The position numbers were made by a program, and so were the translations under genes. Under the pieces are notes generated by a model that had not been told where the DNA came from, made no database searches, and worked only from the letters and a program-made list of their open reading frames with translations. A DNA stretch of 35,539 nucleotides from a virus, in IMG/VR virus record IMGVR_UViG_3300018429_000011, positions 1 through 35,539 of that record; one strand, written 5' to 3'. This document shows positions 15,203 to 34,776 of the stretch, in pieces; position 1 is the stretch's first letter; the number at the start of each line of letters is the position of its first letter.

Positions 15203-15208
15203 TTGATC

Positions 15209-16178: not shown

Positions 16179-16210
16179 AAATCCTCTAACGTATCAGTTG
16201 CTTTTCATTA

Positions 16211-16239: not shown

Positions 16240-16244
16240 ACGGT

Positions 16245-17039: not shown

Positions 17040-17040
17040 G

Positions 17041-17580: not shown

Positions 17581-17616
17581 GTGTTCCTTTACTTTGGTGT
17601 TGGGTTGGTAGTGACT

Positions 17617-17645
17617 ACGATACCCTACTATCGGAGCGGTGTCAA
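17617..17645 (-). promoter_or_regulatory. Sigma70-type promoter of the macrodomain operon
   Basis: Leftward TTGACA (17640-17645), 17-nt spacer, TATCGT (17617-17622), about 37 nt before the ATG at 17580. Confidence 0.7.
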
Positions 17646-17912
17646 CTACTCATCGAACGGGTCTTCCGGAACGATGTTGTAGATCTCGTTGGGGATGTCG
17701 TTGGCGAGCATCTCCTGATGGCGGTCCATCTGGGAGAGGGATTCGGCAATGGACTGAAGCTCGTGGTCTTCAATGCTCTGCCAGCCGATGACCTCCGGAG
17801 AGATGTCCACTACGGAGTTCTGAGTGTACTCTCCGTCGAGATCGGAAAAGGTTTCCTCTTCAAGGGTGATGTGGAGCCGGATGTCGATGTAACCGTCGAT
17901 GAATTTGGCCAT
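17646..17912 (-). CDS. Hypothetical acidic protein
   Basis: 88 residues, very acidic (MAKFIDGYIDIRLHITLEEETFSD...PEDPFDE). The ATG overlaps the stop of the preceding gene (TGATG). Part of a leftward chain of small overlapping genes from 19107 to 17646. No family recognised. Confidence 0.7.
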   Translation of the reverse strand: MAKFIDGYIDIRLHITLEEETFSDLDGEYTQNSVVDISPEVIGWQSIEDHELQSIAESLSQMDRHQEMLANDIPNEIYNIVPEDPFDE

Positions 17913-18130
17913 CAGTCCAGTACCTCGTTCAGTAGGGACTTGAGTTCATAGATGGTGTCGAAATCTACGTCATCGTCGTGCCTCAGGTATTGCAAGAGGA
18001 GGGACAGATGCTCTTGAGAGACATCTCCGGTGTCAATGAAAACAGGCCAAAAGCCTACAAGCTCACGCTCATCCTCTGTCTCAAAGATTTCAAGCTCGAA
18101 TTCAACAGTGATCTTCTGCTTCTCAGACAA
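17912..18130 (-). CDS. Hypothetical acidic protein (TTG start)
   Basis: 72 residues. The start is a TTG at 18130, preceded by GAGG at a 6-nt gap and lying 8 nt inside the end of the preceding gene. The sequence is acidic with a beta-rich N-terminus (ITVEFELEIFETEDEREL) and a helical C-terminus. It resembles 17646-17912 in its alternating-strand opening (IxIxLxITLEEE versus ITVEFELEIFE), so the two may be distant duplicates. Confidence 0.65.
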   Translation of the reverse strand: MSEKQKITVEFELEIFETEDERELVGFWPVFIDTGDVSQEHLSLLLQYLRHDDDVDFDTIYELKSLLNEVLD

Positions 18131-18350
18131 TGTCGGCCTCGTATTCTTCGCCGTGCTCGATGACGGAGATCAGGTTGGTTGCGTCCGCGTAGAGATCCTG
18201 TTCGTTCAACTTTTTCATAATTTCTGCTTTCTCATTGGCTTGGACAGCCATCAATAGATACTCCAGAGCTTCGGGTCGGAATTTGTCAAATACGGCAACG
18301 GCGTCATCGTCGTGCTCAGTAATTTCGTGGGCCAATGTCCATCGCTTCAT
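18123..18350 (-). CDS. Hypothetical small protein
   Basis: 75 residues from the ATG at 18350 (MKRWTLAHEITEHDDDAV), with AAGG 9 nt upstream; it overlaps the preceding gene by 35 nt. The frame is open to 18410, but that start would overlap 95 nt. A TTG at 18335 is another possible start. Helical and acidic; no family recognised. Confidence 0.55.
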   Translation of the reverse strand: MKRWTLAHEITEHDDDAVAVFDKFRPEALEYLLMAVQANEKAEIMKKLNEQDLYADATNLISVIEHGEEYEADIV

Positions 18351-18651
18351 AGAAGGATACCTTGCGGTCTGAGTACAGGTTGTGGTATGCGTACCGGCAA
18401 CCTTTTCCAAGCTCTTGATCCATCTTTCCGGGGTACTTCTGTATGTGACTCGTCATGAAGGATACAACATGCGAGGCCTGCACCACGTCGTTCTGGTCGG
18501 AGATCTCGATCAGGAGCTTCGTCCAGTTGATCACCTTTCCCGGAACGGTGCTGCTGTCGCGGTCGATCTGGTGATAGGAGAGTGACCAGTACCAGTCCTT
18601 GGGGAGGGCCGGAATATCGGTGCAGGTCTTCAGGTAATCGCTACGGGGCAT
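18316..18651 (-). CDS. Hypothetical phage protein
   Basis: 111 residues starting MPRSDYLKTCTDIPAL. The ATG overlaps the stop of the preceding TM gene (TGATG). Aromatic-rich (DWYWSLSYHQ, YAYHNLY); predicted mixed alpha/beta. No recognisable family. Confidence 0.65.
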   Translation of the reverse strand: MPRSDYLKTCTDIPALPKDWYWSLSYHQIDRDSSTVPGKVINWTKLLIEISDQNDVVQASHVVSFMTSHIQKYPGKMDQELGKGCRYAYHNLYSDRKVSFYEAMDIGPRNY

Positions 18652-23790: not shown

Positions 23791-24675
23791 TTAGGGCGCT
23801 ACAGCCTTGAGCGTGCCAAGGATCGGGTAGCGTCCAAGGTCTTCACCCACGAGATATCGGCCTGACACCCTGTAGAAGAACCTCTCTTCCGGCGCCTGTC
23901 CGGTCACCTGTGCGAGGAACTCCGTCATGGGCGCGGTTGCCGTGTACAACCCATTGCCAGTGGAGTGGTCCCCGCCGATCCGTTCATACAGGCTGTCGAT
24001 GGATGGCTGTCCAGCGTAATGCGTGCGCATGGCATAACCGTGATCGGCGGGCGGGACGGTGGTGTCTGCGGTGCCCACGAGTTGTAGGACGTTCAGGCCC
24101 GCCCACTCCGACGCGGAGAACAGCAACGGATCATACCCAATTGACGCGGCGTTGAATGTTGCGTCGTCGGCCGCCCCGTAGGCTGCCCGAATTTCTGTGG
24201 TCCAGTTACCGGATGCATAAGCGGCAGCGAGCGACTGCACACCACTGTTGACGATCAGCCCCACGCTGACGGGGGCGAGGACTGCCGACTGTGTGTAGAG
24301 CCACTGGACGACAAGCCCGCCCATGGACCGGCCCAAAGGCACTACGGACCCGAGATCCAAGACGCCAGCAACATGCGTGTAGGCGTTCTCGTAGGCGACG
24401 CGGGACGCGGTGTTTCCCCACGGCTGGGACCCGCCACCGCTGCCCTCAATCCACGCCCAACCGTTGTCGATCAGCCACTCCCGCAGGCCGAGCCATGAAC
24501 TGAAACCTTCGAACTGGTTGGATGATCCTCCCGCGCCGTGCGCGTACAGCAGGACGGGAATGTCAGTGTCGCCAAGGTGGGTGTCCCCAACGCCCCAGCG
24601 GACGGTACCCGCGCCGGAAACAACGGCTGAGTAGGTGGTCCATGCGTTCCCGTTAGTCGTTACCCCTGCACCCAT
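23791..24675 (-). CDS. Alpha/beta hydrolase, probably tail-associated
   Basis: 294 residues. Motifs of the alpha/beta hydrolase fold: HGAGG (46-50, oxyanion region), nucleophile elbow GRSMGG (115-120, Ser117), Asp204 in VGTADTTVPP and His237 in GGDHSTG, a complete Ser-Asp-His triad. It could cleave ester bonds in cell-surface glycans or lipids during adsorption. The ATG overlaps the stop of the preceding LamG-like gene (TGATG), so both are probably parts of the same tail tip or fibre. Codon third positions appear more GC-rich than in the neighbours, hinting at separate acquisition of this pair. Fold sure; location inferred. Confidence 0.82.
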   Translation of the reverse strand: MGAGVTTNGNAWTTYSAVVSGAGTVRWGVGDTHLGDTDIPVLLYAHGAGGSSNQFEGFSSWLGLREWLIDNGWAWIEGSGGGSQPWGNTASRVAYENAYTHVAGVLDLGSVVPLGRSMGGLVVQWLYTQSAVLAPVSVGLIVNSGVQSLAAAYASGNWTTEIRAAYGAADDATFNAASIGYDPLLFSASEWAGLNVLQLVGTADTTVPPADHGYAMRTHYAGQPSIDSLYERIGGDHSTGNGLYTATAPMTEFLAQVTGQAPEERFFYRVSGRYLVGEDLGRYPILGTLKAVAP

Positions 24676-25655
24676 CAGGCAGGCACTCCGAACGACACAT
24701 CATCCACGGCGAGAGACAGGTCAGCGGAGGATGCGTTGATGCCGAACTTCGTTGCAGTCGTGTGGTAATTGATCGGCCCGGACCATGCGAGGACGTCGTT
24801 GATTCGGATTGAAACGTCCTGCCCGGAAAGGTCGATCTGGATCACGTCGCCGTCTGTGGAGAGTTGTGTCAACGTTGCCATGACCGTCGCTGTGCCAGAG
24901 ACGCGGCGCATGATACGGTAACGGTTATCTGCTGCTGCGGTACGCAAGGCGAGAATAACCTCATTGGCGGCATCGACGTGCCGGAAGATGACTGCGCCTT
25001 GGTGATTCGGTCCGGTCGCGGCGATGGTGAGCTTGTACCGTCCGTTCGCTACCCCTGCGTCAACGAACGCGTTGCCGGTGGAGGACGCAATGCCGGTGAT
25101 GGTGAGCCGGTTACTGGCAATGGTCGCGGTGGTGCCTGCCTGTCCGTCTACCTGCCACGCCTTCGCGCCGATTGGGGTTGAGCCTGCCGCTCCATTGGCA
25201 CGGTTGAAGTCGTCGGACAGGATAGCCACGTATGACTCTTCGGAAACTTCAATGATATGGTCCCCGGCAATAGCGTTGATCGGGAAGCCTCCTACGACGG
25301 TGGTAACCCAGTAGATAGGCCCCGCCCATGTCGGTCGGGCGATGGTCAGGTTTGACCCAATGAGGACTTGCTTGGGCACGTCGGCTGGTGTGAAGACAGC
25401 AAGGGAGCCGTCCACGATGGCCTGCACCGCAGCAGCAACCGGCGTCTCAGGGTTGCTGATTGCGCTTTCGGCTTGGTCAAGAATCATGGCAGAGAGTGAC
25501 ACATCTGACAGGCGAGTGGGGAGGGCGGATTCAACAAGTTCAGGGGTCACGGAATACTCTATGAGAGTTCGGGCAGCTTCGCCTGACTCGCTTGTGGTGC
25601 TGGCAAGGAGTTCAGCGATCTTCTTGTCCCCCATGGGAATATCGATGTTGGGCAT
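24675..25655 (-). CDS. Minor tail / receptor-binding-type protein
   Basis: 326 residues. The N-terminal half is helical (MPNIDIPMGDKKIAELLAST...), then a bridging region, and from ~150 a jelly-roll-like domain opens with DDFNRANGAAG and runs to the C-terminus (FGINASSADLSLAVDDVSFG), a pattern seen in lectin/LamG-like domains of actinophage tail proteins. AAAGGA lies 5 nt before the ATG. First gene of a two-gene operon with the hydrolase. Receptor-binding role is inferred from architecture. Confidence 0.7.
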   Translation of the reverse strand: MPNIDIPMGDKKIAELLASTTSESGEAARTLIEYSVTPELVESALPTRLSDVSLSAMILDQAESAISNPETPVAAAVQAIVDGSLAVFTPADVPKQVLIGSNLTIARPTWAGPIYWVTTVVGGFPINAIAGDHIIEVSEESYVAILSDDFNRANGAAGSTPIGAKAWQVDGQAGTTATIASNRLTITGIASSTGNAFVDAGVANGRYKLTIAATGPNHQGAVIFRHVDAANEVILALRTAAADNRYRIMRRVSGTATVMATLTQLSTDGDVIQIDLSGQDVSIRINDVLAWSGPINYHTTATKFGINASSADLSLAVDDVSFGVPA

Positions 25656-25681
25656 GGTAATCCTTTGTTGGTTGTTGATTA

Positions 25682-25690
25682 ATTCTACCA
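25682..25690 (-). promoter_or_regulatory. Putative extended -10 promoter for the tail genes
   Basis: Leftward TGG-TAGAAT, 27 nt before the ATG at 25655. Same 9-mer as upstream of the portal and of 19107; no convincing -35. Confidence 0.5.
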
Positions 25691-25817
25691 GAGGGGAGAG
25701 GGAGGATTACAGGTTGACGTCTGGTTATACTGAGTATTTTTAGCTTTTTTGCGTGAGGTACCAAGTGCTGGTGTTTCAAAACGACCCCCAAAAGTTTCGA
25801 GATGGGCACCGCATCCA

Positions 25818-25847
25818 ATCCTACCCGCATACGGAGCCGCATGTCAA
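25818..25847 (-). promoter_or_regulatory. Sigma70-type promoter towards the tail genes
   Basis: Leftward TTGACA (25842-25847), 18-nt spacer, TAGGAT (25818-25823); would give a ~155-nt leader for the gene at 25655. Confidence 0.45.
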
Positions 25848-25880
25848 GCCTACTCCACTTACAAAAATTGCTAAGGATCT

Positions 25881-25893
25881 TGCACGTCGTGCA
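25881..25893. repeat. Short inverted repeat next to parS
   Basis: TGCACG-T-CGTGCA, a perfect 6-bp dyad one base before the parS palindrome; possible operator or spreading boundary site. Confidence 0.4.
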
Positions 25894-25894
25894 G

Positions 25895-25910
25895 TGTTTC
25901 ACGTGAAACA
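25895..25910. promoter_or_regulatory. Exact bacterial parS site
   Basis: TGTTTCACGTGAAACA is the canonical 16-bp parS palindrome bound by chromosomal ParB in Bacillus, Streptomyces, Mycobacterium and most bacteria. A chance match in 35 kb is very unlikely (of the order of 1 in 100,000). No parA or parB gene is in the window, so host ParB is the natural partner. Confidence 0.9.
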
Positions 25911-25931
25911 TTCGAGAAATTCTCACGTCAC

Positions 25932-25980
25932 TTACAAAAATCTCTAGCGTGTAGACATATCTCCCAATGTCCTATAGTCT
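25932..25980 (+). promoter_or_regulatory. TTACAAAA element plus promoter
   Basis: TTACAAAAATCTCTAG (25932-25947), then TAGACA (25952-25957), 17-nt spacer and TAGTCT (25975-25980). Drives the metallopeptidase gene at 26021. A partial hairpin spans the promoter. Confidence 0.65.
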
Positions 25981-26020
25981 TTCTATATGCACACAACGTG
26001 CGAGTCATAAGGGAGACAAC

Positions 26021-26467
26021 ATGAAGCACTTCATCAGCCTCACAGCCACTATCATCCTTTCTATGTCAGCCCTCTTTGGCTTGCACGAACAGCCCTCACA
26101 GCCTGTCTCACAGCCTGCACCATTCAGTGCATACCCTCTCAAGTCATCGTCTGTGTGGGTGTCTGAGATGCTTGCCACTATGAACGTCACAGTGAGCGAT
26201 AACGTGAAGTTCGTGTTCCAGAATGAGGATAACTGTGGCGCTGAGATATCCTCTATAGGTATGGGAGGATGCACAGTGACACAGAAAGATGGGACCTTTG
26301 TAGTCCTCATCTCCCCTGAACTCGCTTACACATATGAGGGCAATCACATCCTGTTTCATGAGATCGCGCACACGCTCGGCATGGGAGAATGTGATGCCGA
26401 ATACTACGCCCACCGCTTCGAGGAAACCCCCATCTGGTCATACCCGAGTTGTGCACCGCAGGCCTAG
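26021..26467 (+). CDS. Secreted HExxH zinc metallopeptidase-like protein
   Basis: 148 residues from the ATG at 26021, chosen for AAGGGAG 5 nt upstream; the frame is open from 25967 but that start has no ribosome binding site and would hide the signal peptide. A signal peptide (MKHFISLTATIILSMSALFG) is followed by a Ser/Pro/Gln linker and a compact domain with HEIAHTLGMGE (113-123). This is the HExxHxxG zinc site of metallopeptidases, with downstream E/H candidates in DAEYYAHRFEE. Four Cys suggest disulphides. It is far shorter than usual metzincins, so activity is open. A secreted protease could act on the cell surface or on other phages' receptors; this is inference. Confidence 0.75.
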   Translation: MKHFISLTATIILSMSALFGLHEQPSQPVSQPAPFSAYPLKSSSVWVSEMLATMNVTVSDNVKFVFQNEDNCGAEISSIGMGGCTVTQKDGTFVVLISPELAYTYEGNHILFHEIAHTLGMGECDAEYYAHRFEETPIWSYPSCAPQA

Positions 26468-26512
26468 TGTGGTACTCTCATAGAGTAATATCATCCAACA
26501 AAGGGGAACATC

Positions 26513-27055
26513 ATGAAAGCACGCATACTGGCCGTACTCGCTGCGCTTGCCTTGACAATAGGTTCAGTATCGTCTGCACCAGTAGCCACCGCAGATGAAG
26601 CTGTACCTGTATTATCCGTCCAAGAGACTCCAACCATCACGGCAGACCCTGCTGTGTTGACGGCAGACTCACCCACCGTAACCACGGAACCGGCAACGGC
26701 AACCGAAACCGAAACCGAAACCGAGACACAACCCACCGTAGTCGAATCTGTGGAAACTGAGACGGTATTCATACCGGACACGCCTACTGCACCAGCTACG
26801 ACGGTTGATGACGCTGCACCACCAGTAACAGCACCAGAGACGACGGTCGATACTCCCACAACGGAGCCTGAGACGCCTACGACGGAGCCTGAGACAGTTA
26901 TGGAGGCCGCGCCCACGTTTGATCCAGCCGTATTCGAGTACCTCGGCGTAGGCTCACAGCAACACCCTTGTTCGTCTGTCTCGTTCGCATCAGCAGCGAA
27001 TCCCGGTGTGATTTACTCATACCGAGAAATCGAGTTCGGACCCTGCACGGTCTAG
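26513..27055 (+). CDS. Secreted Thr/Glu/Pro-rich protein
   Basis: 180 residues. Signal peptide MKARILAVLAALALTIGSVSSA, then a ~110-residue low-complexity stretch of T, E, P, V and A (TETETETETQ, PTTEPETPTTEPET), then a small C-terminal domain with two Cys (QQHPCSSV... FGPCTV). The stalk looks like a wall-spanning or O-glycosylated spacer that displays the C-terminal domain. AAAGGGG lies 7 nt before the ATG. It follows the metallopeptidase by 45 nt and may share its transcript, although a small hairpin and a TAATAT box lie between. Confidence 0.75.
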   Translation: MKARILAVLAALALTIGSVSSAPVATADEAVPVLSVQETPTITADPAVLTADSPTVTTEPATATETETETETQPTVVESVETETVFIPDTPTAPATTVDDAAPPVTAPETTVDTPTTEPETPTTEPETVMEAAPTFDPAVFEYLGVGSQQHPCSSVSFASAANPGVIYSYREIEFGPCTV

Positions 27056-27109
27056 TTACAAAACTTGCTTAGCCTATGGCTTGTGTCAAACCATTCTGTA
27101 GGCTAAGCT
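27056..27109 (+). promoter_or_regulatory. TTACAAAA element, hairpin and promoter
   Basis: TTACAAAACTTGCTTAG (27056-27072) overlaps a 10-bp hairpin GCTTAGCCTA/TAGGCTAAGC (27067-27076, 27099-27108). The loop holds TTGTGT (27081-27086); after 17 nt comes TAAGCT (27104-27109). Confidence 0.65.
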
Positions 27110-27147
27110 CGTTGTATCAGTCAGGAACAAACAACCCGGAGGTCACA

Positions 27148-27396
27148 ATGACTACCCTGCACAACGCAACTGAAGTCTTTGGTTCATCTGCTGAAGGTCT
27201 GGAGCTTCACAGTTTCCCCGTCCGCAGTATGGGGAACGCCACCGGTACGGGGTACTGGATCGGCATGGAAGTAGACAACACGCGCCGAGTCTACACGCTG
27301 TATCGGATCTGCATCATCTGGGACAACGGCGACGTGGAATATTCCACAGCCGAGTCCGAGCAGGAACTCAAACTGTGGACCGAACACCTTCAGTAA
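27148..27396 (+). CDS. Hypothetical small protein
   Basis: 82 residues from the ATG at 27148 (MTTLHNATEVFGSSAEG), set by GGAGG 5 nt upstream; the frame opens earlier at 27076, inside the promoter. Beta-rich middle (RRVYTLYRICIIWDNGDVEYSTA) and helical end (SEQELKLWTEHL). No family recognised. Confidence 0.75.
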   Translation: MTTLHNATEVFGSSAEGLELHSFPVRSMGNATGTGYWIGMEVDNTRRVYTLYRICIIWDNGDVEYSTAESEQELKLWTEHLQ

Positions 27397-27435
27397 CCAC
27401 CAGCTAGGACGGTAGGCAATCGCCTACCGTTCTAG

Positions 27436-27490
27436 TTACAAAACTTTCTTACAAAAGGGGTTGTGCATCCCACCAATAGTGTGAGACACT
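27436..27490 (+). promoter_or_regulatory. TTACAAAA element and putative promoter
   Basis: TTACAAAACTTTCTTA (27436-27451), then TTGTGC (27461-27466), 18-nt spacer and GACACT (27485-27490). The hairpin is weak here. Confidence 0.45.
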
Positions 27491-27527
27491 TGTATCAGGC
27501 CGGAAACACCAGCCGCGAAAGGAACTC

Positions 27528-27761
27528 ATGTTCAAGCTCACCGAAAACCAGACCGTCAAGCTTAACCACGACGTAGAAATCTGGAACGACGATGATTCGC
27601 TCGCTGCTCGAATCGATGCAGGGACCACGCTCGAAATCACAGATATCTGCCTTGAACCGGTATACACCGGAGACAGCTACAACGTGGATATCAAGGTGAT
27701 CAGCCCGGTCTATGGTGGGTACACTGCAAACCTTGATATCTCAGCCGACGATATCGCATAG
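27528..27761 (+). CDS. Hypothetical small acidic protein
   Basis: 77 residues starting MFKLTENQTVKLNHDVEIW, with AAAGGA 4 nt before the ATG. Alternating strands suggest a small beta-barrel, SH3-like in size, similar in layout to the gene at 28877-29077. A terminator follows. No family recognised. Confidence 0.75.
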   Translation: MFKLTENQTVKLNHDVEIWNDDDSLAARIDAGTTLEITDICLEPVYTGDSYNVDIKVISPVYGGYTANLDISADDIA

Positions 27762-27774
27762 CCAGCCTAAGATC

Positions 27775-27802
27775 AGCCACTCTACGGAGTGGCTTTTCTT
27801 TT
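27775..27802 (+). terminator. Rho-independent terminator
   Basis: AGCCACTC-TACG-GAGTGGCT, an 8-bp stem with a TACG tetraloop, followed by TTTCTTTTG. The ~100 nt after it are strikingly C-rich and G-poor on the plus strand. Confidence 0.85.
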
Positions 27803-27905
27803 GCCCTCCAGCAGCCACCACAGCCACGCTCGCAGCCTCCCAGACCGCCAGACGCCCAATCACCCACACCCACGCTGCCAGACGCTCACAGCGCCACACA
27901 GCGAC

Positions 27906-27959
27906 TTACAAAAGTTTCTAAGCCACATCTAGACAAACCATCAAACACTATGCAATACT
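27906..27959 (+). promoter_or_regulatory. TTACAAAA element and promoter
   Basis: TTACAAAAGTTTCTA (27906-27920), TAGACA (27930-27935), then 17-18 nt to CAATACT (27953-27959). No strong hairpin. Confidence 0.5.
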
Positions 27960-28002
27960 CATTACAGCAACACTCCACAACTCCACAGAGAAAGAGATTC
28001 CA

Positions 28003-28422
28003 ATGGAACTCAAAACCAAAACCCCGGCGTTCATCCTGAAGCTGGCAGTAAAGGTCTTCGAATCCTACCGGAAACAGTGGGCAGAGTACGACGCAGAATG
28101 TGCAGAGTACGCGGCACAAGGCTACCGTCCGCACACCTGCTTCCACGGAACCAGCCTTTGGGTTGACTACGACGTCATGTGTGGTCCGTGCGAGGATGGT
28201 TACGGTTGGTTCGATCCCATGCTGTACCGCCAAATGGCACTCAGTGAGGCTAAGCAGGCCTACGAGAGCTTCGACAAGCGTCTAGAGGTTTACACAAAGG
28301 CAAGCAGCCTTGACGCTCCTATCGATCATGGCAAGATGATCAAATGGGTTGCCGCTCCACTCACCAAGTGGAACGCGGAAGTCCCATCCAACACAGCAGT
28401 AGCAACCGACCCACCGTTCTAA
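28003..28422 (+). CDS. Hypothetical actinophage protein, CxxC motif
   Basis: 139 residues starting MELKTKTPAFILKLAVKVF. The central HTCFHGTSLWVDYDVMCGPCEDGYGW resembles a conserved phage motif (C-HG-x-WxDYDxxCGxCE) with three Cys and two His that may bind zinc. Helices flank it. Function unknown. A GNRA-loop terminator follows. AAAGAG stands 7 nt before the ATG. Confidence 0.75.
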   Translation: MELKTKTPAFILKLAVKVFESYRKQWAEYDAECAEYAAQGYRPHTCFHGTSLWVDYDVMCGPCEDGYGWFDPMLYRQMALSEAKQAYESFDKRLEVYTKASSLDAPIDHGKMIKWVAAPLTKWNAEVPSNTAVATDPPF

Positions 28423-28427
28423 AGATC

Positions 28428-28457
28428 AGGACCTCGAAAGGGGTCCTTTTCTTTTGC
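28428..28457 (+). terminator. Rho-independent terminator
   Basis: AGGACCTC-GAAA-GGGGTCCT (8-bp stem, one G.U, GAAA tetraloop) followed by TTTCTTTTG. Sequence after it resembles that after the 27775 terminator. Confidence 0.85.
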
Positions 28458-28515
28458 CCTCACAAAGCCACCAGCGCCGTTCTAAGCCTCCCAAACCACC
28501 ACACCGGCACTCACT

Positions 28516-28554
28516 CCCGCACAGGCCCGCACAGGCCCGCACAGGCCCGCACAG
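28516..28554. repeat. Tandem 10-bp repeat
   Basis: CCCGCACAGG repeated 3.9 times without change, in the C-rich non-coding spacer after the 28428 terminator. Confidence 0.9.
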
Positions 28555-28578
28555 CAGCATCTCAGCACAATGACAAAA

Positions 28579-28616
28579 GCTCCGGAGAGATTGTTAGTCA
28601 ATCTCCGGAGCCTTTG
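28579..28616. terminator. Bidirectional terminator between converging genes
   Basis: GCTCCGGAGA...TCCGGAGC long stem with a 2-nt bulge. Rightward it is followed by CTTTGT, leftward by TTTTGTC. It separates the plus gene ending at 28422 from the minus gene ending at 28634. Confidence 0.7.
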
Positions 28617-28633
28617 TAAGATTGTAACACGCC

Positions 28634-28819
28634 TCACATGCCAAGCAGTCGTTCCGCCACGCTGTCAATCACAGATGATCCGCCCACCAGCAACACAGCA
28701 GCCGCCAACGGGAGCAGTGGAGATCCCACTACAAATTTTTGTAAGTCTCCAAGCCGTTCGGCCTGTACTTCCATCCGAGCCACACGCGCGGCACGTGCTG
28801 GGGAACATTCTTTACACAT
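28634..28819 (-). CDS. Hypothetical small protein, CxxC and hydrophobic C-terminus
   Basis: 61 residues from the ATG at 28819, with AGAGG 6 nt upstream. MCKECSPARAARVARM at the N-terminus could be half of a zinc site or a WhiB-like remnant; the C-terminal half (SPLLPLAAAVLLVGGSSVIDSV) is hydrophobic enough for one TM helix. A perfect TACAAA-TT-TTTGTA dyad lies inside the frame, which is unusual, so the gene is less certain than its neighbours. Confidence 0.5.
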   Translation of the reverse strand: MCKECSPARAARVARMEVQAERLGDLQKFVVGSPLLPLAAAVLLVGGSSVIDSVAERLLGM

Positions 28820-28838
28820 TTACAGCCTCTTTCAGAGT

Positions 28839-28864
28839 GGGACGGGACCGCTAGGCCCCGTCCC
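28839..28864 (-). other. RNA hairpin between two genes
   Basis: 11-bp stem GGGACGGGGCC/GGTCCCGTCCC with a TAGC loop and one G.U pair only in the leftward RNA. No T-tract, so more likely a processing or leader structure than a terminator. Confidence 0.5.
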
Positions 28865-28876
28865 GGTTTGAGTGTC

Positions 28877-29077
28877 TTAGACAGCTTCCAGCGTGTCCTC
28901 GTTCAGTCCGAAGTATTCGCCGTCCGAGTTCCGGAGTTCCAGCAGCGCCGAACCGTTCCAGTCGTTGGCTGTGATTACATCATTCACTACCAGCAGCCCG
29001 CCGATCATGTCGTCAGGGATACCCATGAATGAGATCTGTGCCAGATCCACCTTGACCAGATCGCCTACCTTGAACAT
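28877..29077 (-). CDS. Hypothetical small protein, SH3/KOW-like N-terminus
   Basis: 66 residues from the ATG at 29077 (MFKVGDLVKVDLAQISFMG), with GGGAG 5 nt upstream; the longer frame to 29137 runs through the promoter. VGDLVKV is a typical first strand of small beta-barrels that bind nucleic acid or protein. No family named. Confidence 0.75.
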   Translation of the reverse strand: MFKVGDLVKVDLAQISFMGIPDDMIGGLLVVNDVITANDWNGSALLELRNSDGEYFGLNEDTLEAV

Positions 29078-29108
29078 TTTGTCTCCCTTGTGCGTTGTTG
29101 GTAGTTCT

Positions 29109-29145
29109 AGAATGACAGCATCAGGGCAGGATGTCAAGCCTGCCC
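29109..29145 (-). promoter_or_regulatory. Hairpin promoter with -35 in the loop
   Basis: Leftward GGGCAGG/CCTGCCC stem (29139-29145, 29124-29130) whose loop holds TTGACA (29132-29137); 17 nt on is CATTCT (29109-29114). No TTACAAAA copy here. Confidence 0.55.
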
Positions 29146-29158
29146 CGACACAATCGCG

Positions 29159-29332
29159 CTAGTAGTCCAGAATCTCATCCACATGGATGATTCGGCCCGC
29201 TTCGCCGTGCTGTTCTTCCAACTCTTCCAGCGAGTCGTACCAGAACCCACCGACACCATCCGGAGACCAGAAATACATTTCAGCCTTTACGTCGTAGTAA
29301 GCTACATCGGCCTGAAGATCTTTGCGTTCCAT
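29159..29332 (-). CDS. Hypothetical small acidic protein
   Basis: 57 residues: MERKDLQADVAYYDVK at the start, FWSPDGVGGFWYDSLEE in the middle and RIIHVDEILDY at the end. AGGAG lies 5 nt before the ATG and the gap upstream has the full regulatory cassette. No family recognised. Confidence 0.7.
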   Translation of the reverse strand: MERKDLQADVAYYDVKAEMYFWSPDGVGGFWYDSLEELEEQHGEAGRIIHVDEILDY

Positions 29333-29370
29333 TGTGACTCCTAAGTCGTTCGCGTTGTTGCGATATAGAA

Positions 29371-29424
29371 AGACTATCAGTGATGGGACCGGATTACCAG
29401 CCCCACCACTAGAAAGTTTTGTAA
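29371..29424 (-). promoter_or_regulatory. Regulatory cassette: TTACAAAA element, hairpin, promoter
   Basis: Element 29410-29424; 13-bp hairpin (29397-29409 with 29380-29392) whose three non-Watson-Crick pairs are all G.U in the leftward RNA; -35 TGGTAA at 29394-29399, 17 nt, -10 TAGTCT at 29371-29376. Confidence 0.7.
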
Positions 29425-29673
29425 CTACAGCGGGTTGTTCTGAAACTCGATCCGACCATCCCGAATCAGGATCGTGTAGTGAGCCGTGATCCTGTCCAAT
29501 TCGGGTACATCGTACTCCACAGCAGCCCAGAAACGATTCATGTTCAGGTAACCACTCCGGACCTCATACCGGAGGATAGAGCCGTCTGCCAGACGCTCCG
29601 CGTAGTGAGGTTCGATCTCTGCCTCAATACGTGCGAGGTCTGCCGTTACGTTTGCCGGGTTGTAGGGTTCCAT
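29425..29673 (-). CDS. Hypothetical small protein
   Basis: 82 residues from the ATG at 29673 (MEPYNPANVTADLARIEAE), with AAGGAG 4 nt upstream; the longer frame from 29754 covers its promoter. Helical start, beta-rich end (HYTILIRDGRIEFQNN). No family recognised. Confidence 0.75.
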   Translation of the reverse strand: MEPYNPANVTADLARIEAEIEPHYAERLADGSILRYEVRSGYLNMNRFWAAVEYDVPELDRITAHYTILIRDGRIEFQNNPL

Positions 29674-29702
29674 GATGCTCCTTAGTTCGGGTTGTATAAA
29701 GA

Positions 29703-29731
29703 AGACTAGCGTACAAAAAAGCCAAGCGCAA
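29703..29731 (-). promoter_or_regulatory. Promoter TTGCGC-N17-TAGTCT
   Basis: -35 TTGCGC at 29726-29731, -10 TAGTCT at 29703-29708, both inside the end of the small TM gene at 29706-29822. Same boxes as the promoter at 32439. Confidence 0.65.
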
Positions 29732-29822
29732 GATAGGCCGCAAAGATGAAACAAACCGAACCTTTGAGTCCCAGTTCCATCCGGTGGAGGAATCCATCAT
29801 GCTTTACAAAAAATTCTTCCAC
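29706..29822 (-). CDS. 38-residue single-TM protein
   Basis: Small frame from a GTG at 29822, with GGAG 7 nt upstream: MEEFFVKHDGFLHRMELG then a hydrophobic segment (SVCFIFAAYLALGFFV). It sits between the terminator at 29889 and the gene at 29673. Phage membrane peptides of this size are common, but only the ribosome binding site and the TM segment support it. Confidence 0.5.
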   Translation of the reverse strand: MEEFFVKHDGFLHRMELGLKGSVCFIFAAYLALGFFVR

Positions 29823-29888
29823 GGTCCTGCTCCTATCTTGTCGGCTCGTTCCGATACTCAATACTCTCATACCCTAGAACAAAAGTAA

Positions 29889-29908
29889 AGCCAGTCCGTA
29901 GACTGGCT
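29889..29908 (-). terminator. Rho-independent terminator next to a TTACAAAA element
   Basis: AGCCAGTC/GACTGGCT 8-bp stem with a TACG-type loop, leftward tail TTTACTTTTG. Directly preceded by the element at 29908-29922 and the stop at 29923. Confidence 0.8.
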
Positions 29909-29922
29909 AGAACTTTTTGTAA

Positions 29923-30102
29923 TCAGATGTGCCAATGTCCATGGGTCTCCCCGACCCATTCCCGCTGCACCAGATGCACCGGAGTCGCTACCGCGTACTC
30001 TGTGATCCAGCGGCTGATAAAGTCCAGTGAGTCGCTTTTGATATAGACCGTCCCGCTGCGGGTAAGCTGTGCGGCGTATTCAAGGCGAGTTGTAGCTGAC
30101 AT
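29923..30102 (-). CDS. Hypothetical small protein
   Basis: 59 residues: MSATTRLEYAAQLTRSG, then a strand-rich core and a His/Trp-rich end (THGHWHI). AGGGG lies 6 nt before the ATG. Its leader shares a hairpin with the gene at 30611. No family recognised. Confidence 0.65.
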   Translation of the reverse strand: MSATTRLEYAAQLTRSGTVYIKSDSLDFISRWITEYAVATPVHLVQREWVGETHGHWHI

Positions 30103-30120
30103 TTTGGACCCCTACCTAAG

Positions 30121-30139
30121 TTCAAGCTCCCTGCTTGAT
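30121..30139 (-). repeat. Leader hairpin, copy 1
   Basis: Leftward TCAAGC-AGGGA-GCTTGA inverted repeat about 25 nt before the ATG at 30102. An identical copy is at 30629-30647. Confidence 0.8.
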
Positions 30140-30306
30140 ACTCCATTGTCTCACACTTTCACAGCTAATTGTGAGCCATGCCACAAAAAACTTTTGTAAC
30201 CTCACTCCTTGACTCTCACGCTCCAAGACGTTAGTCTTACAGTATGAAGCGACGGAGGATGCAGGGAAACGAGAGGACCCCAAAAACTCCAGCCCAAAAC
30301 CAAAAA

Positions 30307-30333
30307 GAAAGGACCGCCGTAGCGGTCCCTTTC
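30307..30333 (-). terminator. Rho-independent terminator
   Basis: GAAAGGGACCGC/GCGGTCCTTTC stem with a TACG tetraloop, leftward tail TTTTTGG, 3 nt after the stop of 30336-30611. The ~165 nt beyond it (30140-30306) hold a TTACAAAA-type element (30184-30199) and no gene that I can support. Confidence 0.85.
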
Positions 30334-30335
30334 TC

Positions 30336-30611
30336 TTACTTGTCCAGAGCTTTCTGGATGCTGGGGGAGACGTCCCAGCCGTTGTAAAGCTCTTTCATTT
30401 TGGCTACCGCGTTCCGGAGTCCAGCAGGCTTTGTAGTGCGTCCAGCGGGCAGCAGGCCCTGAATCCGGCACGCATCCAGTCCGGAACCGTTCCGTGAGAG
30501 TTTCATGCCGGTGACGATTTCGATTGCCAGCCCGCGAAGTGCAGCGTTGCGCTGGAAGAATGCGATGCCTTCGCCGGTAACGACGGTTCCGGCTGCTGTG
30601 TTCTCTGACAT
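30336..30611 (-). CDS. Hypothetical phage protein
   Basis: 91 residues starting MSENTAAGTVVTGEGIAFF with AAGGAG 6 nt before the ATG. Helical, with GRTTKPAGLRNAVAKMKELYNGWDVSPS near the end. Resembles small conserved phage proteins of unknown function. Confidence 0.75.
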   Translation of the reverse strand: MSENTAAGTVVTGEGIAFFQRNAALRGLAIEIVTGMKLSRNGSGLDACRIQGLLPAGRTTKPAGLRNAVAKMKELYNGWDVSPSIQKALDK

Positions 30612-30628
30612 GGGTGTCTCCTTAGTTC

Positions 30629-30647
30629 TTCAAGCTCCCTGCTTGAT
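30629..30647 (-). repeat. Leader hairpin, copy 2
   Basis: Second copy of the TCAAGC-AGGGA-GCTTGA hairpin, 18 nt before the ATG at 30611, preceded as in copy 1 by a GTGTGAGA motif. Confidence 0.8.
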
Positions 30648-30720
30648 GTCTCCATCCTCTCACACATCCAAACACTATACAAGTCCACACCCACACTAAT
30701 TATTTTTGTAACTCCCCCAA

Positions 30721-30824
30721 AAGCAAAAGGGCAGCTTTGGTTTCCCTGCCTCCGGAGCTTCATACCTCCAGCATACGCGTAAGGCTCCCACCTGTCTAGG
30801 TGAGAGCCTTACAAAGTTTTGTAA
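30721..30824 (-). ncRNA. Candidate structured small RNA
   Basis: After a perfect TTACAAA-AC-TTTGTAA dyad (30809-30824) the leftward strand folds into a ~15-bp hairpin (GTAAGGCTC.../...GAGCCTTAC), a GGAG/CTCC hairpin and a GGCAG/CTGCC hairpin followed by TTTTGCTTTT (30721-30728). No credible coding frame spans it. It could equally be a terminator plus leader. Confidence 0.35.
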
Positions 30825-30826
30825 CT

Positions 30827-31015
30827 CTAGTCTTCCTCCCGGAAGTCTTCGCGTCGGTCTTCCTTGTAATCCCGAATCCGGTCCTGCTCTGCTTCCCACT
30901 TAGGGGAAAGTTCCCAGTACCGCGCGGACTCTTCAGCCGTGAGACCAGTTCCGTCTTCGCACAGATCCACCAGTGCCGCGAATTCCCGAGCTTCTCCGAG
31001 AGTGAGCTTTTCCAT
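30827..31015 (-). CDS. Hypothetical small helical protein
   Basis: 62 residues starting MEKLTLGEAREFAALVDLCEDG, AAGGAG 4 nt before the ATG. Very charged, ending in an acidic/basic tail (RIRDYKEDRREDFREED). No family recognised. Confidence 0.7.
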   Translation of the reverse strand: MEKLTLGEAREFAALVDLCEDGTGLTAEESARYWELSPKWEAEQDRIRDYKEDRREDFREED

Positions 31016-31120
31016 TTGACTCCTTAGGTTCGGACTGTTCCGATAGATAAGATCCTCTCACACATCGCGCGCTACTGTCAAACACTATCGAAAACCCGCA
31101 CACGCGCCTCTAAGCCACTC

Positions 31121-31151
31121 AAAAGGAAAGGACCCTACCGGAGTAGGGTCC
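31121..31151 (-). terminator. Rho-independent terminator
   Basis: GGACCCTAC/GTAGGGTCC 9-bp stem with a TCCG loop, leftward tail TTTCCTTTT. It follows the stop at 31163. A TTGACA lies further on (~31060) but no good -10 pairs with it. Confidence 0.85.
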
Positions 31152-31162
31152 CATCCTCTAAG

Positions 31163-31585
31163 TCACTCAGCAGGCTTTGTAGCCACTACCCATCCAGCAG
31201 GCTCACAGTCGCAGCCCGATTCTTCCGAACAGAATTCTTGAGTGTAGCCACAATCCGATTCCATCACCAATGCCACGTAATCGCCGGGAGTCTCCAGAAT
31301 GTACCGGGCAATTCCTCCTCCGATGTACTCCGAGGGATGCATGACTGGACCGTTGTAGCTGTACTGGCCAGTGAAACCGCTAAGCAGGCTCCAACCCTCC
31401 GGAAGGTTGATTTCATCCTCCCATTCCCACGTCTCAGGGTTCACAAGGTAGGACCGGACAGCCTCATCAAAGTAAACACGCTCCGGAGAATCCGTTACGG
31501 TTCCATCAGCGTGCACGCGGATCACGTGGTCAAACTCCATAACAGAGTTCAGGTTTTCTTCAGTGACTTTCTGACCTTCGCGCAT
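31163..31585 (-). CDS. Hypothetical acidic protein
   Basis: 140 residues from the ATG at 31585 (MREGQKVTEENLNSVMEF), with GGAGG 4 nt upstream; the frame opens further to 31633 but into the promoter. The C-terminal part has four Cys (SDCGYTQEFCSEESGCDCEP), perhaps a metal site. No family recognised. Confidence 0.75.
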   Translation of the reverse strand: MREGQKVTEENLNSVMEFDHVIRVHADGTVTDSPERVYFDEAVRSYLVNPETWEWEDEINLPEGWSLLSGFTGQYSYNGPVMHPSEYIGGGIARYILETPGDYVALVMESDCGYTQEFCSEESGCDCEPAGWVVATKPAE

Positions 31586-31629
31586 GATTCCTCCAGAATC
31601 TTTTGGGAGCCGGTTGCTCCATAACTCAA

Positions 31630-31683
31630 ACACTACAGGTCCGGAGCCGCCTACGCAACTCCGGACCCTAAAAACTTTTGTAA
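31630..31683 (-). promoter_or_regulatory. Regulatory cassette: element, hairpin, promoter
   Basis: Element 31669-31683; ~9-bp hairpin (GGTCCGGAG type); -35 TTGCGT 31653-31658 in the loop, 17 nt, -10 TAGTGT 31630-31635. Confidence 0.7.
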
Positions 31684-32079
31684 CTAGTGGTTACCCGATG
31701 CAACCTGAAACGCCTCGCGTTCCTCCGGAGTAAGGAAGCCCTCCAGCCGAGCCGCTACACGCTCACAGGCCCGATACACGCTCTTAGCCTTGGCAGTCTG
31801 GGAAATGCTGTCCGTGTCGTAACCCATGGATTCCATGAACCCTTCAAGGGATTCATAAGCAACCAGAACCGCGTCCGAGATCATGGTATCCATGAAGTCA
31901 ACCAGACCGGGAGCTTTGCCACCGTGGCCAAATCCCATGAAGTATTGGCGCTGGAACGTCTTGCCACGCGGATTCGTGATCCGTACCCGCCACGCGTCCA
32001 TGTTGGCCATGTCGTCGTTGTAGTGGTTGTTATCGATCCGAGTAGCAGTGATCTTGAATCCTGCGAGTACATCAGACAT
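31684..32079 (-). CDS. Hypothetical phage protein
   Basis: 131 residues starting MSDVLAGFKITATRIDNNH; an N-terminal beta domain (WRVRITNPRGKTFQRQYFMGFGHGG) and a helical rest ending LEGFLTPEEREAFQVASGNH. AGGAG 6 nt before the ATG. No named family. Confidence 0.75.
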   Translation of the reverse strand: MSDVLAGFKITATRIDNNHYNDDMANMDAWRVRITNPRGKTFQRQYFMGFGHGGKAPGLVDFMDTMISDAVLVAYESLEGFMESMGYDTDSISQTAKAKSVYRACERVAARLEGFLTPEEREAFQVASGNH

Positions 32080-32120
32080 TTTGTCTCCTAAGACTGGGAA
32101 CCGGTTGTTCCGATATGTAA

Positions 32121-32178
32121 AGACTATCAGAGTTGGGACCGATCACCTAATCGACCCCAACCCTAGAAACTTTTGTAA
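32121..32178 (-). promoter_or_regulatory. Regulatory cassette: element, hairpin, promoter
   Basis: Element 32164-32178; 12-bp hairpin with two G.U pairs (32150-32161 with 32132-32143); -35 TAGGTG 32144-32149 in the loop, 17 nt, -10 TAGTCT 32121-32126. Confidence 0.7.
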
Positions 32179-32400
32179 CTACTCGTCGTACACTCCGAGA
32201 CACCATCCGGCAATCGGTTCAACAAACACACCGGGAACCTTGGATTCGAACCGGAACGTCCAGTCGTCGCCGCCTTCCCATGCAATGGAGAACGAGCCCT
32301 TCGAGAGTCCCTCGTGGTCCGCGTCGTACAGTTTCGGTTCGTCCGTTCCGAACTGTGCCTTGATTTCTGCCAGTACTTTTTCAGCCTTTGTGCGCCGCAT
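32179..32400 (-). CDS. Hypothetical small protein
   Basis: 73 residues from the ATG at 32400 (MRRTKAEKVLAEIKAQFG), AAGGAG 6 nt upstream. Helix followed by a beta sheet (GSFSIAWEGGDDWTFRFESK). No family recognised. Confidence 0.75.
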   Translation of the reverse strand: MRRTKAEKVLAEIKAQFGTDEPKLYDADHEGLSKGSFSIAWEGGDDWTFRFESKVPGVFVEPIAGWCLGVYDE

Positions 32401-32438
32401 GGTGTCTCCTTGTTCATTCGGACTGTTCCGATAAAGAA

Positions 32439-32493
32439 AGACTATCGGAGTTACGTCCAACGCGCAACCCCGATAGCCTAGAAACTTTTGTAA
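32439..32493 (-). promoter_or_regulatory. Regulatory cassette: element, hairpin, promoter
   Basis: Element 32479-32493; 14-bp hairpin with two G.U pairs (32463-32476 with 32442-32455); -35 TTGCGC 32462-32467, 17 nt, -10 TAGTCT 32439-32444, then TTCTTT. Confidence 0.75.
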
Positions 32494-32988
32494 CTACTGC
32501 TCAAGTTCCCGTAGACCGTCGTAAACCAGCGAACCGAACAGGTAATCGCTCCCGTATGTTCCGGGATCGGCTTCGTTGTGGAACTGAACCAGCGCGGTTT
32601 CCTCCCAGAATTTCCCGCCAAGGTCACCGGCTTCCTGTTCAGGGTCCACAACCAGCACTAGATCGAACTGGAACCACTCCGAGCCGCTATCGTCGGTCTG
32701 GAAGTCTTCGCCCTTGTAGCGCTCTTCTATGAGCTTCTGAAGGGCAATCAGGACGGCTTCCTTAGGCTGTCCATCCTCCGAGAACATACGGTCTTCCGCG
32801 TCCTTAGTAACGCTCTCATCGAGTTCACGATGGAACCGGAAGTCTTCCTGTACGGTGAGGATTGCCAGCATCTTTCCCGTAGGCTCCCCTGCATCGTCGG
32901 CGTGCTCCGAGATATTGCAGTACACGTGAGGGTTCAGGCCTTCCAAGCCAAGTTCTACCGCTGAAAAGTATTCGTCCTGTTCAAGCAT
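32494..32988 (-). CDS. Hypothetical acidic protein
   Basis: 164 residues, strongly acidic (MLEQDEYFSAVELGLEGLN). Mixed alpha/beta; DNA-mimic-like charge but no recognised family. Its ribosome binding site lies in the GTCCTAGGAGGAC mini-hairpin (32992-33004). Confidence 0.75.
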   Translation of the reverse strand: MLEQDEYFSAVELGLEGLNPHVYCNISEHADDAGEPTGKMLAILTVQEDFRFHRELDESVTKDAEDRMFSEDGQPKEAVLIALQKLIEERYKGEDFQTDDSGSEWFQFDLVLVVDPEQEAGDLGGKFWEETALVQFHNEADPGTYGSDYLFGSLVYDGLRELEQ

Positions 32989-33024
32989 TTTGTCCTCCTA
33001 GGACATTCGTAGTTGGTACTTGTA

Positions 33025-33078
33025 AGACTATCAAAGTCTACGGTTCATTACAAGCCGTAGACTAAGAAAGTTTTACAA
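33025..33078 (-). promoter_or_regulatory. Regulatory cassette: variant element, hairpin, promoter
   Basis: Variant element (leftward TTGTAAAACTTTCTTA, 33063-33078); 9-bp hairpin AGTCTACGG/CCGTAGACT; -35 TTGTAA 33048-33053 in the loop, 17 nt, -10 TAGTCT 33025-33030. Confidence 0.7.
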
Positions 33079-33387
33079 CTACAGCCATTCCAGTTCATCG
33101 GCTGTCAGTTGGTCCCGATCAAGCCGCTTCACGTCGATGTCATACGGCGCGTGCTGCATGATTGCCATGATGTTGTCCCAGAATTCGGCCTGATAGTGTG
33201 TCCCGTCAAAGGACATCGAAATGGCTTCCTCCCGTTCGTCATCGGTCATCGGTTCCGCGTCGCTGTACGCCTCCGTGGTGAGCGCGTCGTTGATGGCTTC
33301 AAGCAGGTCCTGCTTGCCAACTTCAGTCGCAGGGTAGAGGTCCCCTTCGAAACGGTAAGCAATTTCGGTAGCGGTAGCTGTAGTCAT
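33079..33387 (-). CDS. Hypothetical acidic protein
   Basis: 102 residues starting MTTATATEIAYRFEGDLYPATEVG, very acidic, helical. Its ribosome binding site is in a variant mini-hairpin, GGTCTGGAGGACC, where both arms changed together. No family recognised. Confidence 0.75.
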   Translation of the reverse strand: MTTATATEIAYRFEGDLYPATEVGKQDLLEAINDALTTEAYSDAEPMTDDEREEAISMSFDGTHYQAEFWDNIMAIMQHAPYDIDVKRLDRDQLTADELEWL

Positions 33388-33432
33388 TTGGTCCTCCAGA
33401 CCTAAGGGATTCCATTTGAATCCGATATAGAA

Positions 33433-33491
33433 ACACTATCATGGTTGGGAGCCGATACCTAATCGACTCCCAACCTTAGAAACTTTTGTAA
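33433..33491 (-). promoter_or_regulatory. Regulatory cassette: element, hairpin, promoter
   Basis: Element 33476-33491; 14-bp hairpin (33462-33475 with 33443-33456); -35 TAGGTA 33456-33461, 17 nt, -10 TAGTGT 33433-33438. Confidence 0.7.
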
Positions 33492-33779
33492 CTAGACCAA
33501 CGTCCGCATGTGGTCCTGTACCGCGTGCAAGAGCTTTACGGACTCTGCAAGGCTCAAGTCCTTGACCTGTTCGTCAAGCTTGGCACCGTCCGCGAACGCT
33601 ACGCCTCGAAGCTCTCTCAAAGCATCTTCAAGCTTGTTGATGTACCGCTGCCGAGCCTCCTTGAAAGACGCTGACATTGAACGGTCATTGCCCAACGACT
33701 CCCGCAATCCGTTGCTGTGGATACTGGCCGCTCCCGTTACGAGTTCCAACGCATCCTGCTTAGCTTTTACATCAATCAT
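33492..33779 (-). CDS. Hypothetical helical protein
   Basis: 95 residues starting MIDVKAKQDALELVTGAAS, fully helical (FKEARQRYINKLEDALRELRG). Ribosome binding site in a mini-hairpin (33783-33795). No family recognised. Confidence 0.75.
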   Translation of the reverse strand: MIDVKAKQDALELVTGAASIHSNGLRESLGNDRSMSASFKEARQRYINKLEDALRELRGVAFADGAKLDEQVKDLSLAESVKLLHAVQDHMRTLV

Positions 33780-33816
33780 CTTGTCCTCCTAGGATTTCGG
33801 TTGTTCGGTACTACTA

Positions 33817-33871
33817 ACTCTAGGCTATGGGAGCCATTCGCACAACTCCCATAGCCTAGAAAGTTTTGTAA
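33817..33871 (-). promoter_or_regulatory. Regulatory cassette: element, hairpin, promoter
   Basis: Element 33857-33871; perfect 14-bp hairpin (33846-33859 with 33820-33833); -35 TTGTGC 33840-33845 in the loop, 17 nt, -10 TAGAGT 33817-33822. Confidence 0.75.
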
Positions 33872-34114
33872 CTAGTCGATGCTCCAGATGGCCATCCGGT
33901 AGCGCGTACCGCCTAGAGTGGAGCCGCAGCAACCGCACGCGCTCCAAGAAAAGTCTGTGATCCCGGCCTCTTCGTCTTCGCCGTTCTCTTCAGTTGGGCC
34001 GGTGTTGTCCGTCCAGTCAACCGATTGATCCTTCATCGGTCGGCCTTCGTGGTGATCGAAGTAGCAGTCAACGCAAACATCAACGTCATCGTTCAGCAGT
34101 TCGTGAGCGGCCAT
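33872..34114 (-). CDS. Putative zinc-binding phage protein
   Basis: 80 residues. CVDCYFDHHEG near the N-terminus and CGCCGSTLGG near the C-terminus give two CxxC pairs with histidines, a likely zinc ribbon; the linker is acidic. Actinophages carry many proteins of this layout (ELLNxDVDVCVDCYF...CCGSTLxGxRY), unknown in function. Confidence 0.8.
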   Translation of the reverse strand: MAAHELLNDDVDVCVDCYFDHHEGRPMKDQSVDWTDNTGPTEENGEDEEAGITDFSWSACGCCGSTLGGTRYRMAIWSID

Positions 34115-34161
34115 TGTGTCCTCCTAGGACATTCAGCGGATTCGGTTGATCCGATATAGAA

Positions 34162-34216
34162 AGACTACAGGCTCCGGAGCAGTTTGTCTACTCCGGAGCC
34201 TAAGAAAGTTTTGTAA
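34162..34216 (-). promoter_or_regulatory. Regulatory cassette: element, hairpin, promoter
   Basis: Element 34201-34216; perfect 11-bp hairpin AGGCTCCGGAG/CTCCGGAGCCT (34191-34201 with 34169-34179); -35 TAGACA 34185-34190 in the loop, 17 nt, -10 TAGTCT 34162-34167. Confidence 0.78.
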
Positions 34217-34218
34217 CT

Positions 34219-34518
34219 CTACGCGGCGTACTCCCGGTAGAACTGTGCGCGGCCCTTGTTTGCCGTTGTAACGCGTGCGTTGGGGAGCAACCTACGCGCT
34301 ACCGCGTCCAGTGTTGACAGCGGCTGTGCGGGTACTCCATCGGCTGCAAGAGCGGTAATCCGGATCTTGGTCACCTTGCCGGATTCCACATCGATGAAAC
34401 GGGTTGCCTTGACGCGCGGTTCAGGCTGTCCCTTGATCTCCAGCTTGAAAGGTGTCACTCCCATCGTCATGTTTTCGGTATCAGCGACAAGAGCGGTAAT
34501 GACTGAAGGTGTTGCCAT
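34219..34518 (-). CDS. Hypothetical phage protein
   Basis: 99 residues starting MATPSVITALVADTENMTMG, AGGAG 8 nt upstream. Beta-rich N-terminus, then LSTLDAVARRLLPNARVTTANKGRAQFYREY. It follows the gene at 34549 by 30 nt without a cassette between, the only such pair in this arm, so the two form an operon. Confidence 0.75.
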   Translation of the reverse strand: MATPSVITALVADTENMTMGVTPFKLEIKGQPEPRVKATRFIDVESGKVTKIRITALAADGVPAQPLSTLDAVARRLLPNARVTTANKGRAQFYREYAA

Positions 34519-34548
34519 GGTGTTTCTCCTACTAGGGTTGATGGTTGG

Positions 34549-34737: not shown

Positions 34738-34776
34738 TTTGTCCTCCTAGGACGGTTGTTGTTTGGTTATGTGTAA

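Follow-up and report, generated by a model that had tools for sequence, protein, structure and literature searches.

The stretch of viral DNA analysed here (hereinafter the window) is a complete 35,539-bp IMG/VR record, yet represents only a fragment of a phage genome. A scan of the window recovered a 16/16 match to the bacterial parS site, the palindrome TGTTTCACGTGAAACA at 25895-25910, which matches the consensus TGTTNCACGTGAAACA and is the sole perfect palindrome of at least 16 bp within the window. Allowing up to three mismatches recovered no second parS-like site in the window, the next best having four, and the expected number of exact copies per window is 5.5e-6 from its base composition and 1.0e-5 under a second-order Markov model. 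The palindrome lies in a 365-bp divergent intergenic region (25656..26020) bounded by gene starts at 25655 on the minus strand and 26021 on the plus strand. An earlier note, made from the letters of this DNA, had claimed both the base-for-base match to the ParB site and the setting between divergent genes, and both are confirmed. Its description of the locus as a control region stands with respect to the divergent intergenic placement but is incomplete: the same segment also forms the inner boundary of a long direct terminal repeat (DTR), and about 130 bp separate parS from the predicted end of the genome. Given the exact match and the exact copies in relatives, we annotate the palindrome (25895..25910) as a chromosomal-type parS and predicted host ParB loading site.

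The left divergent gene (24675..25655, minus strand) encodes a 326 aa protein with no family matches and is the first gene of the unique region of the genome. The right divergent gene (26021..26467, plus strand), on the DTR side, encodes a predicted secreted protein of about 148 aa with a zinc-protease-like HEIAH motif recognized by eye, and this protein gave no Pfam or PHROG match. In the interval separating parS from the DTR end, motif matching identified a sigma70-like promoter, TTGACA-18-TAGGAT (25818..25847, minus strand), which is directed into the unique region and has parS about 47 bp upstream of it; one such match on the minus strand of the window (25847-25818) is close to the shuffle expectation. 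By eye, the phages Racecar (TTGACA-18-GATAAT) and Atuin (TTGACA-18-TACGAT) likewise have -35 and -10 elements 18 bp apart at the equivalent place. To the left of parS lies TTACAAAAATT (25859..25869, plus strand), a copy of a repeat that by count is confined to the DTR side, while direct reading identifies a variant copy of the same type, TTACAAAAATC, to its right (25932..25942, plus strand). Copies of the repeat TTACAAAA(G/C)TT are distributed over positions 25859-34831 of the window, all on the DTR side, and the repeat frequently appears as TAGTTACAAAAGTTTCTAG right after a stop codon; it is followed by a hairpin, an AT-rich -10-like TATAGTCTTTCTATAT and then the next small gene. It looks like a modular terminator-promoter unit of early genes. 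The early DTR region further encodes an ArdA-like antirestriction protein (PF07275; 34832-35248, minus strand), and a short tandem repeat of cacaggcccg is found at 28527-28556. Elsewhere, the window carries an NAD-related gene set comprising nicotinate phosphoribosyltransferase and phosphoribosyltransferase genes (11951-14558, minus strand) and a Macro-domain protein (17041-17580), which the annotation of relatives labels an ADP-ribosyltransferase.

The closest named relatives of the window are the Arthrobacter phages Racecar, Mimi, Talia1610 and Atuin (~192-194 kb each), to which it shows 73-77% nucleotide identity in alignable parts. Collinearity of the genes with these relatives runs from the portal protein (7252-8883) through the parS region and past it. 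By comparison with these genomes, the window would be a piece of a ~190 kb Arthrobacter phage, the host assignment coming from the relatives. In Racecar parS is found at 20314 and 194023, and in Atuin as pairs at 15670/16194 and 192558/193082; the constant offsets between these copies suggest direct terminal repeats. Accordingly, the first and last 20,468 bp of Racecar are identical, and the equal parS offset in Atuin implies a deduced DTR of 17,312 bp. The deduced repeat ends of the two phages (20468 and 17312) fall at the same sequence, GCAC|TAGCC. This forms part of an end block, CTCGAAACTTTTGGGG ... GCAC|TAGCC ... CCGAAATAGCTAAAAAATA, which is recognizable in the window and in four IMG/VR relatives (L269, L271, L272 and L273). 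Alignment of the end block places the predicted right-hand DTR end, and with it the genome end, at 25764..25765 of the window (GCAC|TTGG), with 25765 as the last DTR base and the DTR extending from there upwards. Thus, the synteny from the portal gene to the DTR end and the conserved end block place the window in the Racecar-Atuin group with its long DTR. The repeated motif TTACAA(A/G)ANTT separately points to this boundary, all of its copies lying on the DTR side: 15/15 in the window, 30/30 in positions 1-50000 of Racecar and 6/6 in positions 1-18500 of Atuin. The distance from parS to the genome end is 130 bp in the window (to the predicted end) and 139 bp in Racecar. As parS lies inside the terminal repeat, the packaged genome should carry it twice. 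We claim no broader association of parS with genome termini, since the ends of many deposited phage genomes are arbitrary.

The exact 16-mer is present in all four named relatives. Between the window and Racecar the flanking sequences retain only ~60% identity on the left and ~67% on the right (ungapped columns), while the 16-mer itself is identical at 16/16 positions. The number and location of the sites vary within the group: Atuin has two exact sites, at distances of 1.1 and 1.6 kb from the genome end, and the three sites of the metagenomic IMG/VR relative L273 fall within ~140 bp of one another at a distance of ~1.0-1.1 kb. No parS at up to four mismatches is present in the available DTR sequence of L271 and L272 (7.2 and 6.8 kb); it is absent from the visible 2.0 kb of L269 (89% identity in one protein), and, at up to two mismatches, from the distant 174 kb contig L274. 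Hence, parS occurs in four lineages (the window; Racecar, Mimi and Talia1610; Atuin; and L273) and is missing at that place in at least two. The earlier note had regarded absence from close relatives as telling against the site, and the outcome is mixed, with four lineages having parS and two lacking it in the ~7 kb examined. Since parS number and position shift between relatives, these patterns suggest that the site was repeatedly gained under selection in the Racecar-Atuin group rather than being passively inherited. Its absence from L271, L272 and L274 indicates that it is useful but not essential in this group.

Six-frame searches of the window and the four complete relatives for the ParB domains ParB_N (PF02195) and HTH_ParB (PF17762) recovered none in these five records (0/5), and the ParA family AAA_31 (PF13614), the only ParA-type family searched, was likewise absent from them (0/5); the controls for these searches gave matches. 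The claim that the window lacks parAB is therefore borne out for these families and extends to four whole relative genomes. Thus, neither of the genes expected of a phage-encoded ParABS system, parB or an AAA_31 parA, is found in the five records. We also considered Racecar gp5 (L122:1985-3634), annotated as having a 'ParB-like nuclease domain', as a reader of parS and rejected this candidate: it matches DndB (PF14072) and has neither ParB_N nor HTH_ParB. Atuin gp4 (L130:1600-3102) also matches DndB PF14072 and not ParB_N. The 'ParB-like nuclease domain' label on Racecar gp5 is thus probably misleading. Because ParB_N, HTH_ParB and AAA_31 ParA are all absent from the window and its relatives, the likely reader of the phage site would be the ParB of the host. 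Of 39 genomes sampled across the order to which Microbacterium gubbeenense belongs, without Arthrobacter being singled out, 23 contain the exact 16-mer and none the reversed control. The 16-mer also agrees with the parS consensus of Corynebacterium glutamicum (TGTTNCACGTGAAACA) and Mycobacterium smegmatis (GTTTCACGTGAAAC) (Livny et al. 2007; Table 1, PMC7022226).

We then turned to phages at large. A query consisting of the 16-mer plus N14 found the exact 16-mer in 286 of 50,697 phage records (2.3 Gb), where ~0.5 copies are expected; many of the 286 are nearly the same phage, and the records are not independent. They are distributed across phages of Listeria (87), Microbacterium (49), Arthrobacter (29) and Gordonia (25), with Microviridae, inoviruses, phages of Bacillus, Lactobacillus and Enterococcus, and others making up further groups. 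Two permuted half-site palindromes gave no matches among the same 50,697 records (0 and 0), and in IMG/VR the 16-mer occurs in at least 120 contigs as against 5 for one permuted palindrome. An 18-bp palindrome (36 Escherichia/Salmonella records) was dropped as a control, being of the wrong length. The unrelated carriers that we inspected include Gordonia phage Woes, Roseobacter phage DSS3P8, Glutamicibacter phage Voltaire, Enterococcus phage Athos, Bacillus phage Chedec 11, Lactobacillus phage Lpa804, Listeria phage P100, Arthrobacter phage Nubia and Microbacterium phage Paschalis. The inovirus bajarodino virus 6 (L268) has six exact sites in a filamentous phage genome of 5.9 kb. The T5-like Vibrio phage phi 3 (L257) has a near-exact and an exact site in its left terminal repeat, listed at 821-836 and 2934-2949, the exact one lying between A1 and A2. 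ParB_N was detected in 1 of 12 sampled phages (phi29 included) and in 2 of 49 IMG/VR contigs, many of which are fragments and some of which may be chromosomal or plasmid DNA. Among the IMG/VR matches listed (120 loci), parS fell outside ORFs of at least 100 aa in 68 of 117 cases, compared with 123 of 585 random positions.

Variants of the site speak only in part for a match between phage and host. The Pseudomonas consensus parS is TGTTCCACGTGGAACA (PMC7022226). It occurs in 58 phage records and is commonest in Pseudomonas phages (17/58); it is also present in 10 Klebsiella phage records, a misfit with host matching. To our knowledge, Klebsiella hosts have no chromosomal ParABS. In one of these viruses, Klebsiella phage RaK2, the Pseudomonas-type site lies inside a coding sequence (JQ513383.1:62491-62506). 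For the Streptococcus-type variant AGTTTCACGTGAAACT host matching was ruled out: its 4 records are all Sulfolobus viruses, with the sequence inside the integrase. On the whole, we think it rather probable that borrowing the host chromosomal centromere is a widespread, convergent phage strategy, in which ParB-less lytic dsDNA phages, inoviruses and microviruses whose hosts have ParB carry a host-matched parS, often intergenic and sometimes in terminal repeats (as in the Racecar group and Vibrio phage phi 3), that would place incoming or replicating genomes under the control of host ParB, ParA or SMC.

The exploitation of host ParB via parS by a phage is already known from phi29, which according to Meijer et al. 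2005, as cited in PMC9437464, uses the host ParB (Spo0J) for entrapment of its genome in the spore. In the phi29 genome we found TGTTTCACGTGGAACA, which differs from the consensus at one position, four times. The earlier note had stated that it knew of no described phage use of the site, and the Spo0J-dependent entrapment, together with the four one-mismatch sites, corrects this. The virulent phi29 has parS-type sites, no ParB_N protein and a use for host ParB, and the occurrence of parS without a phage ParB is shared by the window and its four named relatives. However, the phi29 sites are one-mismatch versions distributed genome-wide and serve spore entry, whereas the window has a single exact site at the terminal-repeat end of a ~190 kb phage. 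The genus Arthrobacter is not known to sporulate. The phage copy has the same sequence as the consensus of the chromosomal parS of Actinobacteria and other bacteria, but comes without parA or parB and is not beside a chromosomal origin. Partition elements are found on other actinophages: the parABS cassettes of the RedRock type, from extrachromosomal prophages, comprise their own ParA, ParB and centromeres. In contrast, the window and its four relatives lack ParA (AAA_31) and ParB and have a host-type site. A comparable dependence on another replicon is seen in SGI1, a mobile element without a complete system of its own, which is described as hijacking the parABS system of an IncC plasmid (PMC10954446). 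There the provider is a helper plasmid, rather than presumably the host chromosome as here, and the elements are unrelated. What is new is the exact parS at the long terminal-repeat end of large Arthrobacter phages, along with the evidence for ParB-less phages of many groups carrying host-type parS. The literature searched yielded no direct description of parS in phages, which is weak evidence, as subscription journals and preprints were mostly outside its scope.

It is established for ParB that binding to parS is followed by closure into a CTP clamp and by spreading across kilobases of DNA. By analogy, host ParB dimers would bind the phage palindrome and then close as CTP-dependent clamps, which may move along the DNA into the terminal repeat and its surroundings, covering the adjacent promoters. 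In this way the phage genome would be linked to the segregation machinery of the host, namely ParA and the nucleoid and possibly SMC, such that infecting or stalled phage genomes could be positioned and inherited, as a non-sporulating counterpart of the Spo0J-dependent entrapment of phi29. Our preferred explanation, which we consider moderately probable, is that the phage parS is a selected chromosomal-type site for loading host ParB in a ParB-less, probably lytic Arthrobacter-type phage, with positioning and inheritance as its favoured use. The individual parts differ in strength. That host ParB binds and spreads from the site appears very probable; that the site serves genome positioning is more tentative, being quite possible but short of what we would call probable. 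We favour positioning or retention because phages that differ widely in their gene content share the site and because phi29, the one described case, relies on Spo0J to bring its genome into the spore. The claim in the earlier note that the phage could recruit host ParB is well supported by the conservation or re-gain of the site in the family, its strong enrichment in unrelated phages and the lack of a phage ParB, while the uses that it proposed, among them partition, condensation and silencing, are candidates. Against our explanation, a single parS in a fast-replicating, fast-lysing phage has no obvious need for partition, and L269, L271, L272 and L274 lack the site within the stretches and mismatch limits searched.

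Silencing of promoters is a serious rival, even if we judge it unlikely to be the principal role. Here ParB at parS would act as a transcription switch, its clamps spreading over the divergent promoters and early DTR genes to repress or delay one of them until replication dilutes ParB. The placement between divergent genes just upstream of the predicted TTGACA-18-TAGGAT promoter agrees with this, and there is a precedent in Pseudomonas aeruginosa, where native ParB represses genes beside the intergenic sites parS3 and parS4 (PMC5521831). However, 1-1.6 kb separate the sites in Atuin and L273 from the DTR-end promoter, so that the spacing to the promoter is not kept, and the gene contexts of parS differ greatly among other phages. 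Somewhat less likely again is that the replicating phage DNA acts as a decoy, drawing ParB or SMC off the origin of the host, or that ParB-loaded SMC compacts or protects it. The loading of SMC by ParB at parS is established in other bacteria (PMC10197239). Moreover, by lying in the DTR the sites number two per packaged genome in Racecar and four in Atuin, and the inovirus has its six sites; yet one or two sites per genome make a weak sponge before replication. In T5 the left terminal repeat region enters the cell first; by this analogy the site in the left terminal repeat of Vibrio phage phi 3 would be among the first to enter, which fits an early role better than late titration.

The remaining alternatives dispense with ParB altogether. 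That the palindrome is the operator of a phage-encoded regulator, its likeness to parS being coincidental, would suit a regulatory region in a family that has conserved helix-turn-helix proteins (e.g., window 9786-10355). We nevertheless regard it as very improbable, as the identical 16-mer, unlike the permuted palindromes, is shared by bacterial chromosomes and by tailed phages, inoviruses and microviruses that are unrelated to one another, and as L271 and L272 retain the end region without it. The lack of the site at this place in the same two genomes might be taken to favour a chance occurrence or functionless captured host origin DNA. This is scarcely credible against an expectation of ~1e-5 per window and the 16/16 preservation of the site in several lineages, where the flanks have diverged and the copies do not all occupy the same position.

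Taken together, these observations suggest that phages repeatedly borrow the chromosome-partition protein of their hosts. ParB is known as a chromosome-segregation protein, and its described use by phages is, as far as we found, limited to phi29 and sporulation. If many phages carry functional host parS sites, ParB would be a host factor in ordinary infections. Racecar and Arthrobacter provide a direct test system for this, in which the phage lacks a ParB of its own and the site is a single defined 16-mer. More generally, parS sites may explain how phage DNA is retained through host division in stalled or slow infections.
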